NCBI GenBank assembly: GCA_900319855.1
Contig: ONQC01000012.1
Span: forward strand, 1 to 64,000
DNA: 64,000 bases
Reading direction: 5' to 3'
DNA from: an uncultured Bacteroidales bacterium
GTDB lineage: Bacteria > Bacteroidota > Bacteroidia > Bacteroidales > UBA932
Shown here: one piece after another, positions 4,083-7,408 of the stretch
Numbering within the stretch: the stretch's first letter is position 1
How the letters are laid out: each line of letters begins with the position of its first letter
Translations under genes and position numbers: made by a program
Notes under the pieces: generated by a model
Told to the model about the DNA's origin: nothing
The model's input: only the letters and a program-made list of their open reading frames with translations
The model's database searches: none

Positions 4083-5576
4083 ATGCCAATGCTCAGTCCC
4101 GCTTATTGCAGCGACAAATACCAGTACACCATGGGCAAGTCCTTCTACGAAACCGGACGCGCCCAACAGATTGCCGTGTTCAACATGTTCTACCGCAAGG
4201 CCCCCGAGAACAACAACTGGGCGGTCGTCAGCGGTACCCGCGAAGTCATCGAGATGGTGCAGAACATCGGTAAGATGCCCGCGGATTTCTATGAGAAATT
4301 CCTGCCGGGCGAGGATTATGCCGAATTCCGCAACTACCTCAGCACCATGAAGTTTACCGGCAATGTGTACGCCATGCGCGAAGGCGAGATTGTCTTCCCC
4401 AACCAGCCGGTCATCACCGTTGAAGGCCCGCTCATCGAAGCCCAGATCCTCGAGACCCCGATCCTGTGCATCATGAACCACCAGATGGCGGTCGCCACCA
4501 AGGCCTCCCGCGTCTGCCGTGCCACCAACCGGCCTGTCAGCGAATTCGGTTCCCGCCGGGCCCACGGTCCCTGGGCCGCCCAGTTCGGCGCCAAGGCTGC
4601 GATTATCGCCGGCTGCGCCAGCACCTCCAACATCCTGACCGGCGTGGCCAACGTAGTCCCTTCGACCGGCACCATGGCCCACAGCTACGTCACGTCCTAC
4701 GGCAGCAGCGTCGAAGGCGAGCACAAGGCCTTCTGCGACTACATCAACACCCACCGTGGCGAGAACCTGATCCTGCTGATCGACACCTATGACACCCTTA
4801 AGTGCGGCATCCTCAACGCCATCCGCGCCTTCCGGGAAAACGGCATCGATGACAATTATCCGTATGGCTACGGCATCCGCCTGGACAGCGGCGACCTCGC
4901 CTACCTGTCCATCAAGGTCCGCAAGATCCTCGACGAGCACGGCATGACCGGCTGCAAGATCTTCGCCACCAACTCCCTCGACGAATACCTGATCACCGAC
5001 CTGGAACGCCAGGGTGCCCAGATCGACTCCTACGGCGTGGGCGACGCCATCGCCACCAGCAAGGCGGCCCCGTGCTTCGGCAACGTCTACAAACTGGTCC
5101 AGATCAACGGCGAACCCGTGCTCAAACGCTCCGAGGATACCATCAAGCTCATCAACCCGGGCTTCCAGATCACCTACCGGATCATCAAGAAAGACCCGGA
5201 CCTGGGCGAGGTTTACAAGGCGGACGTCACCTGCCTCCGCGGAGACGCCACGGCCCAGGCCATCGAGGCCGGACAGACGTTCACCATCTATGACGAGCAG
5301 GACCGTTATAAATACAAGACCTTTGAGGCCGGCACCTATTCCTGGCGCCACCTCCAGGACCCGGTCATCCAGAACGGTGAACCCTGCTTCGTCGAGCACA
5401 CCCTGCTCGAGAAGAAGGCTTTCTACAACGATACCCTCCATCATTTCAGCCCGTCCGAGCGCCGTCTGATCAACCCGCACTATTACAAAGTCGACATTTC
5501 GGAAGAGCTCCGCGCCGTCAAGCTGGAGATCCTGGAACGGATCAACCGGCAGATTGCGGATTTCCACATCGACTGA
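4083..5576 (+). CDS. pncB: Nicotinate phosphoribosyltransferase
   Basis: The enzyme converts nicotinate and PRPP, with ATP, to nicotinate mononucleotide in NAD salvage. The start ATG 4083 (MPMLSPAYCSDKYQYTMG) gives 497 residues, normal for the family; an upstream in-frame TTG at 4059 would overlap the promoter. Diagnostic segments include the N-terminal TDxYQ-like CSDKYQYTM, EFGSRRAHG (Glu at about 155), STSNILTGV, and the phosphoribosyl-binding stretch IRLDSGDLAYLS near residue 265. It lies in the same direction as pncA 1.2 kb downstream, so the two salvage steps may be regulated together, although two exported proteins and an internal promoter intervene. Confidence 0.96.
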   Translation: MPMLSPAYCSDKYQYTMGKSFYETGRAQQIAVFNMFYRKAPENNNWAVVSGTREVIEMVQNIGKMPADFYEKFLPGEDYAEFRNYLSTMKFTGNVYAMREGEIVFPNQPVITVEGPLIEAQILETPILCIMNHQMAVATKASRVCRATNRPVSEFGSRRAHGPWAAQFGAKAAIIAGCASTSNILTGVANVVPSTGTMAHSYVTSYGSSVEGEHKAFCDYINTHRGENLILLIDTYDTLKCGILNAIRAFRENGIDDNYPYGYGIRLDSGDLAYLSIKVRKILDEHGMTGCKIFATNSLDEYLITDLERQGAQIDSYGVGDAIATSKAAPCFGNVYKLVQINGEPVLKRSEDTIKLINPGFQITYRIIKKDPDLGEVYKADVTCLRGDATAQAIEAGQTFTIYDEQDRYKYKTFEAGTYSWRHLQDPVIQNGEPCFVEHTLLEKKAFYNDTLHHFSPSERRLINPHYYKVDISEELRAVKLEILERINRQIADFHID

Positions 5577-5622
5577 TGTTGGCAAGCTTTTTGCAGAATC
5601 CATTTACAAAAAGATCATAACC

Positions 5623-5973
5623 ATGAAAAAGACCGTATTGTTTTTCCTCGCCGCATGCCTGACCGCCCTGATGGCGGCCGCCATGCCCGCCTCCGCCCGG
5701 ACCGTCCGGGTCGCAGAGGATGCCGTTACCGTTGCCCAGGACGAGGAGACCTTCGATGTATACCTGAAAGAAGTCGGTGTCAATAAAGTCAAGGTCGTCA
5801 AGATCCTCCGTACCCACCTCGAGGTCGACCTGAAGGTCGCCTATGAAATGGTGCAGGAAGCCCCGACCGTCGTCGGTGAAGGCCTCACCGCCGAGAAGGC
5901 CAAGGCCCTTGAGAAGGAACTCAAGGAAGCCGGCGCGACCGTCGAGCTGAAGGCGCCGAAAGTCAAGAAATAA
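5623..5973 (+). CDS. Exported protein with ribosomal L7/L12 C-terminal-like domain
   Basis: The 116-residue protein begins MKKTVLFFLAACLTALMAAA and has an ASA|R type signal peptidase site, so it should be exported. Residues from about 45 on (ETFDVYLKEVGVNKVKVVK through EAGATVELK) align without gaps over about 68 positions to my memory of the E. coli L7/L12 C-terminal domain, with close to half identical. The factor-contact motif VIKAVR is kept as VVKILR, but the GLGLKEAK helix is changed to EVDLKVAY, replacing a key Lys with Tyr. There is no N-terminal dimerisation or hinge region. A ribosomal stalk role is excluded by export; the fold has probably been reused in the periplasm. Function unknown. 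It follows pncB by 46 bases. Confidence 0.88.
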   Translation: MKKTVLFFLAACLTALMAAAMPASARTVRVAEDAVTVAQDEETFDVYLKEVGVNKVKVVKILRTHLEVDLKVAYEMVQEAPTVVGEGLTAEKAKALEKELKEAGATVELKAPKVKK

Positions 5974-5996
5974 TAGATTGTAACATGCTTATGCGG

Positions 5997-6024
5997 GGAC
6001 CGGTCCTTTTTAAGGGGCCGGTCC
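5997..6024 (+). terminator. Hairpin after the L7/L12-like gene
   Basis: GGACCGG and CCGGTCC form a 7-pair stem, with a further CCTT/AAGG pairing inside the loop. No T-tract follows, so it may be a weak terminator or an RNA end-protecting stem. It separates the pncB/L12-like unit from the next promoter. Confidence 0.5.
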
Positions 6025-6025
6025 T

Positions 6026-6057
6026 CTTGCGTGTATGGGGAAAATTCGATACATTTG
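6026..6057 (+). promoter_or_regulatory. Promoter of the 6064 lipoprotein
   Basis: CTTG at 6026-6029, a 20-base spacer and TACATTTG at 6050-6057 match the Bacteroidota -33/-7 pattern. The -7 element ends only 6 bases before the ATG, so the transcript should start at or next to the start codon. Confidence 0.75.
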
Positions 6058-6063
6058 CACGTA

Positions 6064-6816
6064 ATGAAGGCACGTTTCAAACTTTCTGTGCTGGCAGTCC
6101 TGGCACTGCTGGCCGGCTGCAAGGGAGAAGACGCCGTGGAAGAGCCGGTCGACTTCACCCAGGCAACCTATACGCTCTATAACGGCGGACAGGTCAGCGT
6201 GGGGCTGGCCGTCGTCAATCCGGTTTCCCAAAACCTGACCATTCCCCTGGAAATCGAGGGACCGGCATCGGATGTCACCATCATCCCGCAGGAGATCACC
6301 ATTCCGGCCGGAGAGATTTCCGGCGGGACTGTCATTACGGACAAATCCCTTACCGAAGGAGCACGGCTGATCCTTTCCGTCAACCCGCCCCAGGGATACA
6401 TGGGTGGGAAACGCGGGACCACGACGGTCATTTATGACCCGCGGGAAGCCCTGGATTGCTCCATTCCCGGAACCGAGTATTCATTCACGGAAGGGATGGA
6501 ACTGGCCGTCGTCCTGACCGGAGCGCGCAGCAACGCGGACTTCAAGGCGGAAGCCGACCTGCTCATCCCCGTTTACTACACCGGTGACGGCGGACAGACG
6601 GACGGCAGCAACGAAATCATCTTCAAGGAAGGCGGTTTTGTCGTCAAGAAAGGCAGCAACATCGGCTACGGACACCTGATTCGCAGCCACACCACCGATA
6701 TCGAACGGCCGCTGACCGCCCGCATCGGCATCGCGGATTTCGCTGACACGCGGATCCGTTCCGCCGGACAGCAGGTGACCGTCAACATCCCGAAAACTGA
6801 GAAAAAAGACAAATAA
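6064..6816 (+). CDS. Lipoprotein with DUF1735-like beta-sandwich domain
   Basis: The 250-residue protein starts at ATG 6064 (MKARFKLSVLAVLALLAGC); LAGC is a clear lipobox. After it comes a segment FTQATYTLYNGGQVSVGLAV...VTIIPQEITIPAG, which resembles the N-terminal beta domains (DUF1735/BT_3987 type) of Bacteroidales surface lipoproteins, and a second beta-rich half ending VTVNIPKTEKKDK. No catalytic motif is visible. It stops 4 bases before pncA and likely shares a transcript with it from the promoter just upstream, though a surface protein has no obvious link to NAD salvage. A carbohydrate or adhesin role would be a guess. Confidence 0.82.
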   Translation: MKARFKLSVLAVLALLAGCKGEDAVEEPVDFTQATYTLYNGGQVSVGLAVVNPVSQNLTIPLEIEGPASDVTIIPQEITIPAGEISGGTVITDKSLTEGARLILSVNPPQGYMGGKRGTTTVIYDPREALDCSIPGTEYSFTEGMELAVVLTGARSNADFKAEADLLIPVYYTGDGGQTDGSNEIIFKEGGFVVKKGSNIGYGHLIRSHTTDIERPLTARIGIADFADTRIRSAGQQVTVNIPKTEKKDK

Positions 6817-6820
6817 CGGC

Positions 6821-7408
6821 ATGAAAGACTGTGCATTGGTTGTCGTGGACATGCTCTACGATTTTATCGACGGATCCATGGCCTGCGCCCACGCCGAGGA
6901 GGCGGTGCAGCGTTCCCTGGACTTCATCCGCGAGAAGACCTCCGAGCCGCAGGAGACCGAAGAGGTCATCCGGGGCGCTTTCCCCATCCTCTTCGTCCGG
7001 GATTTCCACCCCGCCGACCACTGTTCTTTCAAAGAGCAGGGCGGTCCCTGGCCGCCGCACTGCGTGCAAGGCACCCATGGCGCCGAAGTGCACGAGGCCC
7101 TCGTCCCGTATACCGACGAAGCCCTGACCTTCTACAAGGGCTACGACCGGGCCGTCGAGCAGTATTCCGGTTTCGAAGGCATCAATGAGGCCGGCCAGAG
7201 CCTGCATGACGTACTGGACATCATGGACATCAAGAATGTCTACGTCTGCGGCATCGCCACCGAGTATTGCGTGCGCAACACCTGCGAAGACCTGCTGAAA
7301 GCCGGATACAATGTCTACCTGCTGCAGGACGCCATCGGCTATGTCGAGGAAGAGGGGCACCGCAAAGCCCTTCCCGAAATGGAAGCGGAAGGCATCCACC
7401 TGGTCTAG
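6821..7408 (+). CDS. pncA: Nicotinamidase
   Basis: The enzyme hydrolyses nicotinamide to nicotinate and ammonia, supplying the substrate of PncB encoded upstream. The 195-residue isochorismatase-fold protein shows the catalytic triad Asp10 (VVVDMLYDF), Lys106 (YKGYDR) and Cys150 (GIATEYCVRNT), and metal-site residues in RDFHPADH. PPHCVQGTHGAE is a family signature. The length is usual. It starts 4 bases after the lipoprotein stop and ends 3 bases before the helicase ATG, so these are co-transcribed. Confidence 0.95.
   Translation: MKDCALVVVDMLYDFIDGSMACAHAEEAVQRSLDFIREKTSEPQETEEVIRGAFPILFVRDFHPADHCSFKEQGGPWPPHCVQGTHGAEVHEALVPYTDEALTFYKGYDRAVEQYSGFEGINEAGQSLHDVLDIMDIKNVYVCGIATEYCVRNTCEDLLKAGYNVYLLQDAIGYVEEEGHRKALPEMEAEGIHLV

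Follow-up and report, generated by a model that had tools for sequence, protein, structure and literature searches.

A predicted exported C-terminal domain of ribosomal protein L7/L12 in an uncultured Bacteroidales bacterium and its relatives within one genus

The C-terminal domain (CTD) of ribosomal protein L7/L12 (bL12) is a classic translation fold. On a contig of an uncultured Bacteroidales bacterium (ONQC01000012.1, assembly GCA_900319855.1), of which a stretch of 64,000 nucleotides, hereafter the window, was analysed, a short gene appeared in an initial annotation to place this domain behind a signal peptide. The question raised by this locus is whether a domain of the translation stalk is sent out of the cytoplasm, and what it might do there. 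The gene, its relatives, its upstream region and its neighbours were examined by sequence comparison and structure prediction.

The window gene and its predicted product

The features of the locus are listed in Table 1. The protein begins with MKKTVLFF, and its residues 44-110 match the complete PF00542 profile (positions 1-67 of 67) with 61.9 bits against a Pfam cut-off of 25.9 (E 7.4e-17). The gapless homology to the L7/L12 CTD claimed at the outset was borne out by this match and by phmmer, which aligned E. coli L7/L12 with the window protein gap-free over residues 22-110 (E 3e-13). The dimerisation and hinge regions are missing, as had been stated: the match to the L12 equivalog model TIGR00855 begins at profile position 36 of 125 and reaches 50 bits, below the cut-off of 84.4, a result of the missing dimerisation half. 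In place of the N-terminal dimerisation/L10-binding domain and hinge, the protein has a signal sequence and then a short linker. A normal rplL gene is found on another contig (C58) of the same genome, beside an rpoB-like gene, and its CTD scores 101 bits; the window gene lies outside this rplL-rpoB cluster, between pncB and a lipoprotein gene.

Table 1. Coordinates of the features at the locus of the predicted exported L7/L12 domain
Feature	Position	Strand	Basis and remarks
pncB, nicotinate phosphoribosyltransferase, upstream neighbour	4083..5576	+	NF006695, 489.2 bits (cut-off 469)
sigma54-type -24/-12 promoter candidate, TGGCA-N6-TTGCA	5580..5595	+	10/10 consensus positions; directly after pncB stop, 43 nt before ATG
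CDS of L7/L12 C-terminal domain, predicted exported	5623..5973	+	ATG at 5623, stop ends at 5973, 116 aa
Predicted Sec signal sequence, residues 1-25	5623..5697	+	feature scripts; cleavage-like ASA-R; no conserved lipobox
PF00542 Ribosomal_L12 domain	5752..5952	+	full profile 1-67; model pLDDT 82.4; 1ctf match
Terminator-like hairpin	5991..6032	+	60-nt fold, MFE -28.2 kcal/mol, z -4.33; poor U-run after stem
Putative lipoprotein, downstream neighbour	6064..6816	+	lipobox by eye; no Pfam match
Isochorismatase-family nicotinamidase-like gene, called pncA	6821..7408	+	PF00857, 94.5 bits; NF008623, 92.8 bits, under cut-off 174

The signal features of the window protein consist of an MKK n-region, a hydrophobic stretch and the cleavage-like site at residues 23-26. 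A simple rule, in which a positive n-region, a hydrophobic stretch and a small-x-small site had to be present together, was passed by all 13 exported-type proteins of the family described below, by none of 85 rplL products and by nine of 50 window ORFs of at least 150 aa. The exported-type members have an n-region charge of +2 and cleavage-like sites. The proposal of a Sec signal is thus strengthened by the conservation of signal features plus domain across the family of 13, and the window protein is predicted to be exported from the cytoplasm. The objection raised in the initial annotation, a downstream start that would remove the signal from the homologues, failed: in three members (G607, G631 and G706) no ATG, GTG or TTG follows the first codon until the domain motif is reached. 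In two further members (G208 and G613) the domain comes almost straight after the signal, so that the mature form would have hardly anything besides the CTD. Lipobox-like sequences were noted by eye in the window protein (LAAC at residues 9-12) and in G091 (IIAC), with hydrophobic residues coming after them; a conserved lipobox cysteine is absent across the 13 members.

The predicted fold of the domain has the order beta-alpha-alpha-beta-alpha-beta. Foldseek returned 1ctf as the best PDB match of the model, with TM-scores of 0.90 (target) and 0.78 (query) and an rmsd of 1.2 A, and the top 13 matches, which include every match with E <=0.001, were all L7/L12-type chains, in agreement with the expected L7/L12 CTD fold. 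Below them ranked a chain of PBP2x (E 1.7e-3, rmsd 3.8 A) and, with TM of about 0.6-0.7, chains of ClpS. The model was made with no templates from an alignment (A2) of the window domain, the sequence L032 and ten L12 domains from viral contigs; since this alignment contains ordinary L12 domains, the fold match counts as support and not as independent proof. A single-sequence fold of the whole protein was all-helical and poor (pLDDT 55) and was discarded.

The residues that we take to be the factor-docking residues of bL12 are K65, K70, R73 and K84 (E. coli mature numbering, used throughout), and contacts of the L7/L12 CTD with translation factors are, to judge by its title, reportedly the subject of a 2007 study by Helgstrand. 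Within the family, K65, V68, K70 and L80 are present in 13 of 13 members, R73 and K81 each in 12 (R73 being K in the remaining one), and position 67 is K in 10. Position 84, which is K in all 61 rplL sequences compared, is Y in five members, H in five, F in two and K in one, so that K84 is replaced in 12 of 13. At position 82 the members have E (five), D (four), V (three) or A (one) against E in 60 of 61 rplL sequences, and at position 66 they have V or I against L in 60 of 61. The Tyr reported at the position of K84 in the window protein is indeed there. The broader statement that the factor-contact helix is changed holds for positions 82 and 84 and fails for K65, K70, R73 and K81, which the window protein keeps. 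The retention of basic residues while K84 and others change suggests a docking face that is kept but re-tuned. The net charge of the domain at pH 7 varies from -7.5 to +2.5 among the members, a spread that gives no hint of a single shared ligand.

A family of 13 members in one genus

A profile of five members was searched against a sample of 400 genomes, drawn from the larger set for the genus, at a threshold of E 1e-18. A total of 26 genomes were matched, 13 with an exported-type protein as confirmed by translation and 13 through rplL; the latter were checked against rplL ORFs, five by their own locus and eight by another locus at the same place. PF00542 and TIGR00855 match all 13 members at E <=0.001 (the TIGR00855 cut-off was compared for the window protein alone). 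On a tree built from 70 columns, the exported members form one side of a branch with support of 98/99, against 52 rplL CTDs.

The ratio dN/dS of the domain (Nei-Gojobori) was 0.023-0.050 in the three pairs among G607, G631 and G706, and 0.056-0.082 in G000/G670, G091/G670 and G016/G084, where dS is near or past saturation; it was computed in six of seven pairs, G000/G091 giving no ratio. For the first 40 residues it was 0.20-0.41 in six pairs, with no ratio for G091/G670. Judged by these ratios, purifying selection acts on the domain. The idea that the gene is a chance ORF, a pseudogene or a misassembly without function, which the patchy distribution (13 of 400 genomes) might invite, is hardly credible, being contradicted by the domain dN/dS of 0.02-0.08, the promoter-like site, the hairpin and the family clade.

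The search was extended to the order and the phylum. Among 393 genomes of the order, 356 gave a match at 1e-12, and among the matches listed the best score of the non-window genomes was 1.3e-20 or weaker; no genome other than that of the window was distinct from rplL by best score among these matches. Two matches were found in the genome of the window and in G253 only, the second copy of G253 being an ordinary full-length rplL. Within the phylum, PF00542 was detected in 387 of 392 genomes, 14 of which, including that of the window, had at least two matches. The second copies were searched again in 12 of the 13 other multi-match genomes and in G253 (G1102, with two equal-scoring copies, was left out), and no signal-bearing whole CTD was recognised among the readable second matches (L159 left out), which were pieces of long open frames, proteins of half-domain repeats, an EF-Ts-like protein by our own reading, and an rplL duplicate. 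The search for signal-bearing PF00542 proteins in Bacteroidota that the initial annotation had recommended was therefore positive within the genus (13 of 400 genomes) and gave nothing recognisable beyond the window's own among the second matches read in the 392 genomes of the phylum. In the samples searched, the exported-type family was thus recognised in a single genus. The family of 13, its restriction to one genus in these samples and the recurrent sigma54-type promoter candidate described below are new relative to that annotation.

No match was found in plasmid and phage records, and no relative was found in viral contigs with the queries A1 and L032. The E. coli L7/L12 query detected 18 L12-type loci in viral contigs; among the contigs classed as viral, L174-L179 carry near full-length relatives of bL12 with 41-53% identity to the E. 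coli protein, for which host contamination is possible. A search of genome contigs with the window protein, which reaches close relatives only, gave one relative, the rplL of a WOR-3 bacterium.

Several other uses of L12-like sequences were met on the way. A 795-aa protein of G076 (L073:2849-5236) has an L12-CTD-like domain near its N-terminus, 27% identical to the window domain, and no obvious signal sequence. An open frame of 3165 codons on contig C72 of G960 (L158 and L170) has two PF00542 matches (72 and 65 bits) and would be an unusual, very large fusion. Small proteins at L162, L163, L164 and L165 carry two half-L12 repeats, with a motif like KIEAIKLLRExTGLGLKEAKE, and by eye one of their ends is hydrophobic; in them the L12 helix pair is put to a non-ribosomal use. 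Among the half-domain repeat proteins, L163 and L167 start with a hydrophobic segment.

A recurrent sigma54-type promoter candidate

The sequence TGGCAAGCTTTTTGCA upstream of the window gene is a full match to TGGCA-N6-TTGCW, which we take to be the sigma54 -24/-12 consensus. The identical 16-mer is located at the same distance in G091, a 10/10 site is found in G729, and 9/10 sites in G670, G702 and G208, the last in another gene neighbourhood. In shuffled sequence such a site is expected 0.12 times per window and was present in 11 of 100 shuffles. Sites of at least 9/10 occur upstream of six of the 13 members against two of 139 control upstream regions (Fisher p 2.8e-6, uncorrected for kinship), the controls being taken upstream of mechanical ORFs of at least 150 aa in the window and the member loci, some of which are surely non-genes. 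The six members belong to four separate branches of the tree, G000, G091 and G670 being close kin and the other three separate. Seven of the 13 members have no sigma54-type site of at least 9/10; in G607, G631 and G706 a TTG...TAnnTTTG element was seen by eye instead. This promoter type and the SusC/SusD-like genes of relatives, likewise read by eye, suggest a Bacteroidales affiliation. Among 27 pncA loci that lack the exported gene, no such site was found within 250 nt upstream of the pncA match, with starts estimated from the BLAST match and with two distant homologues (L231 and L232, about 33% identity) included.

The gene for sigma54, rpoN, is present in the genome of the window together with one strong enhancer-binding protein, the N-terminus of which looks receiver-like by eye. 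The exact sigma54 pattern showed no clear enrichment over this genome (11 matches against seven for the reversed control), and an attempt to define a sigma54 regulon from the bare pattern was given up on these counts, several matches lying inside ORFs. One genomic site, TGGCAGAAATATTGCA (L200; G000:C46:24939-24954), is located 62 nt before a gene for class II fructose-bisphosphate aldolase (by eye).

Owing to the hairpin that follows it, the window gene looks like a one-gene unit, and a comparable hairpin is found 3' of the gene in G091. The gene is located a few bases behind another gene in G016, G084 and G663.

Gene neighbourhoods and possible functions

The explanation that we favour, with chances put a little above even, is that the window protein is a paralogue of the bL12 CTD, with a Sec signal and without the half that anchors bL12 to the ribosome, and that it has been exapted as a binding module of the cell envelope in a minority of the species of the genus. 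It builds on properties established at the level of sequence, namely the homology, the predicted fold, the signal features, the single clade, the purifying selection on the domain and the recurrent sigma54-type promoter candidate. If this explanation is correct, the signal sequence would work and the product would be a small periplasmic or secreted protein-binding module; it would bind its partner through the alpha4-alpha5 face, by which bL12 docks translation factors and which would here have been re-tuned by replacement of K84 and often of E82 too. Where the sigma54-type site is present, RpoN together with an NtrC-type activator would switch on production of the protein when it is needed.

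The neighbouring genes bear on what such a module might serve. A role in the periplasm as accessory to, or adaptor for, an enzyme of the cell wall, notably an L,D-transpeptidase to which it would be translationally coupled in one subclade, is unlikely. It is suggested by G607, G631 and G706, in which the end of the exported L12 gene and the start of the gene for a signal-bearing YkuD L,D-transpeptidase share 4 nt, within the order divIC, exported L12, YkuD, prfB and murI-like (murI by eye), so that a DivIC gene stands before the pair and release-factor and murI-like genes after it. One copy each of divIC, YkuD (that of G706) and prfB was checked with Pfam, and the other YkuD copies are 78 and 84% identical to that of G706. 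The related fold of ClpS, an adaptor, points in the same direction. Against this stand the confinement of the coupling to one tight subclade and the lack of any YkuD match in G000, the genome of the window, and in G016, G084, G613 and G670, of which five genomes three are less than 80% complete. YkuD as a universal partner was rejected on its co-occurrence, which is not significant (8/13 against 15/43, p 0.11), and on the lack of a match in the genome of the window.

It is quite unlikely that the signal is weak or a mere membrane anchor and that the protein acts in the cytoplasm as a sigma54-induced decoy which binds EF-G, EF-Tu or IF2 and slows translation. The protein retains the docking residues at the positions of K65, K70, R73 and K81, and in bL12 it is the CTD alone that makes contact with IF2, EF-Tu, EF-G and RF3, as described in PMC12548414. 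The signal features found in 13 of 13 members, with their +2 n-regions and cleavage-like sites, argue against a cytoplasmic decoy, as do the variability or loss of E82 and K84, conserved in 60 and 61 of 61 rplL sequences, and the 4-nt overlap with the gene of a signal-bearing enzyme in three members. By the positive-inside rule, moreover, even an uncleaved domain would face outside.

The genes pncB and pncA are the most frequent company of the family. The exported L12 gene follows pncB in G000, G091, G670, G702, G729 and G663, and in G016 and G084 it stands immediately before pncA; one or the other is thus the immediate neighbour in eight of 13 members (assigned mostly by eye, by BLAST for three). 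Homologues of the window lipoprotein adjoin the gene in G670 (54% identity) and G016 (25%) in BLASTP comparison, and SusC/SusD-like genes, a lipoprotein gene, the exported L12 gene and pncA follow each other in G016 and G084 (by eye). Such an arrangement would fit a route for capture or uptake of NAD precursors to which pncB, pncA and the lipoprotein would contribute, joined in two genomes by SusC/SusD; this we consider distinctly improbable. A search with the pncA protein matched 54 of 61 genus genomes and returned 30 loci, and pncB stands beside pncA in 23 of the 27 returned loci without the exported gene, in two of them on the opposite strand. The linkage to NAD salvage was therefore set aside as evidence of function; it speaks for location, and the position may be that of a neutral insertion. 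The remaining five of 13 members are elsewhere: besides the three with YkuD, G208 and G613 have cytochrome-c-assembly and Na/Pi-cotransporter or 5'-nucleotidase-type genes as neighbours. At L137:935-4766 of G613, the member gene is flanked by genes for a Na/Pi cotransporter-PhoU protein on one side and a 5'-nucleotidase-type enzyme on the other. No partner gene is constant across the 13 members.

A bolder thought, and a long shot, is that the stalk domain has become an exported effector under sigma54 control which, through the retained alpha4-alpha5 face, still docks a translational GTPase, or a protein resembling one, beyond the cytoplasm of its own cell; the target might be EF-Tu exposed on a surface, or the factors of an adjacent cell.

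For the favoured explanation, an exapted envelope binding module, the first candidates for a partner are the envelope proteins encoded next to the gene in relatives: the L,D-transpeptidase, and the lipoprotein with or without SusC/SusD. Compared with known systems, the family is like the bL12 CTD (PF00542, 1CTF) in its full-length gapless match, the same predicted fold and most of the basic docking residues, and unlike it in its signal sequence, the replacement of K84 in 12 of 13 members and its own clade; bL12 differs from the window protein, which stays below the TIGR00855 cut-off, in its dimerisation/L10-binding domain, its hinge and its rplL locus. ClpS resembles the window domain as a small single-domain binding module of related fold, whereas identity is 12-20% in the Foldseek matches listed; ClpS is cytoplasmic, and Pfam scans of the window and the 13 members gave no match to its family. 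L7/L12 itself has reportedly been seen outside the cytoplasm, going by the titles of exoproteome and surface-proteome reports ("moonlighting"). The window protein is like these in being an L12 protein placed outside the cytoplasm, and unlike them in that they are, by the same titles, ordinary cellular proteins and not the product of a dedicated signal-bearing gene, the 85 rplL products being signal-free by our rule. Non-ribosomal membrane proteins with ClpS-L7/L12 domains are described in PMC12419801 as adjoining Skillet-2 lipocone genes. They share with the window protein an L12-type domain in a membrane-linked, non-ribosomal protein, and differ in that, according to that paper, they are single-TM proteins with HTH fusion in which the domain faces the cytoplasm, whereas the window protein is by prediction wholly exported. 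An exported single L12 domain was not encountered among the titles and abstract openings of the literature matches listed.

The family thus hints at the re-use of a part of the translation machinery in the cell envelope. If annotated by PF00542 alone, such proteins would be named ribosomal L7/L12. If a CTD has indeed been detached, provided with a signal for export and maintained in the envelope by strong selection, it would show the re-use of a ribosomal interaction module and would offer a simple system for asking what the docking face binds besides GTPases.
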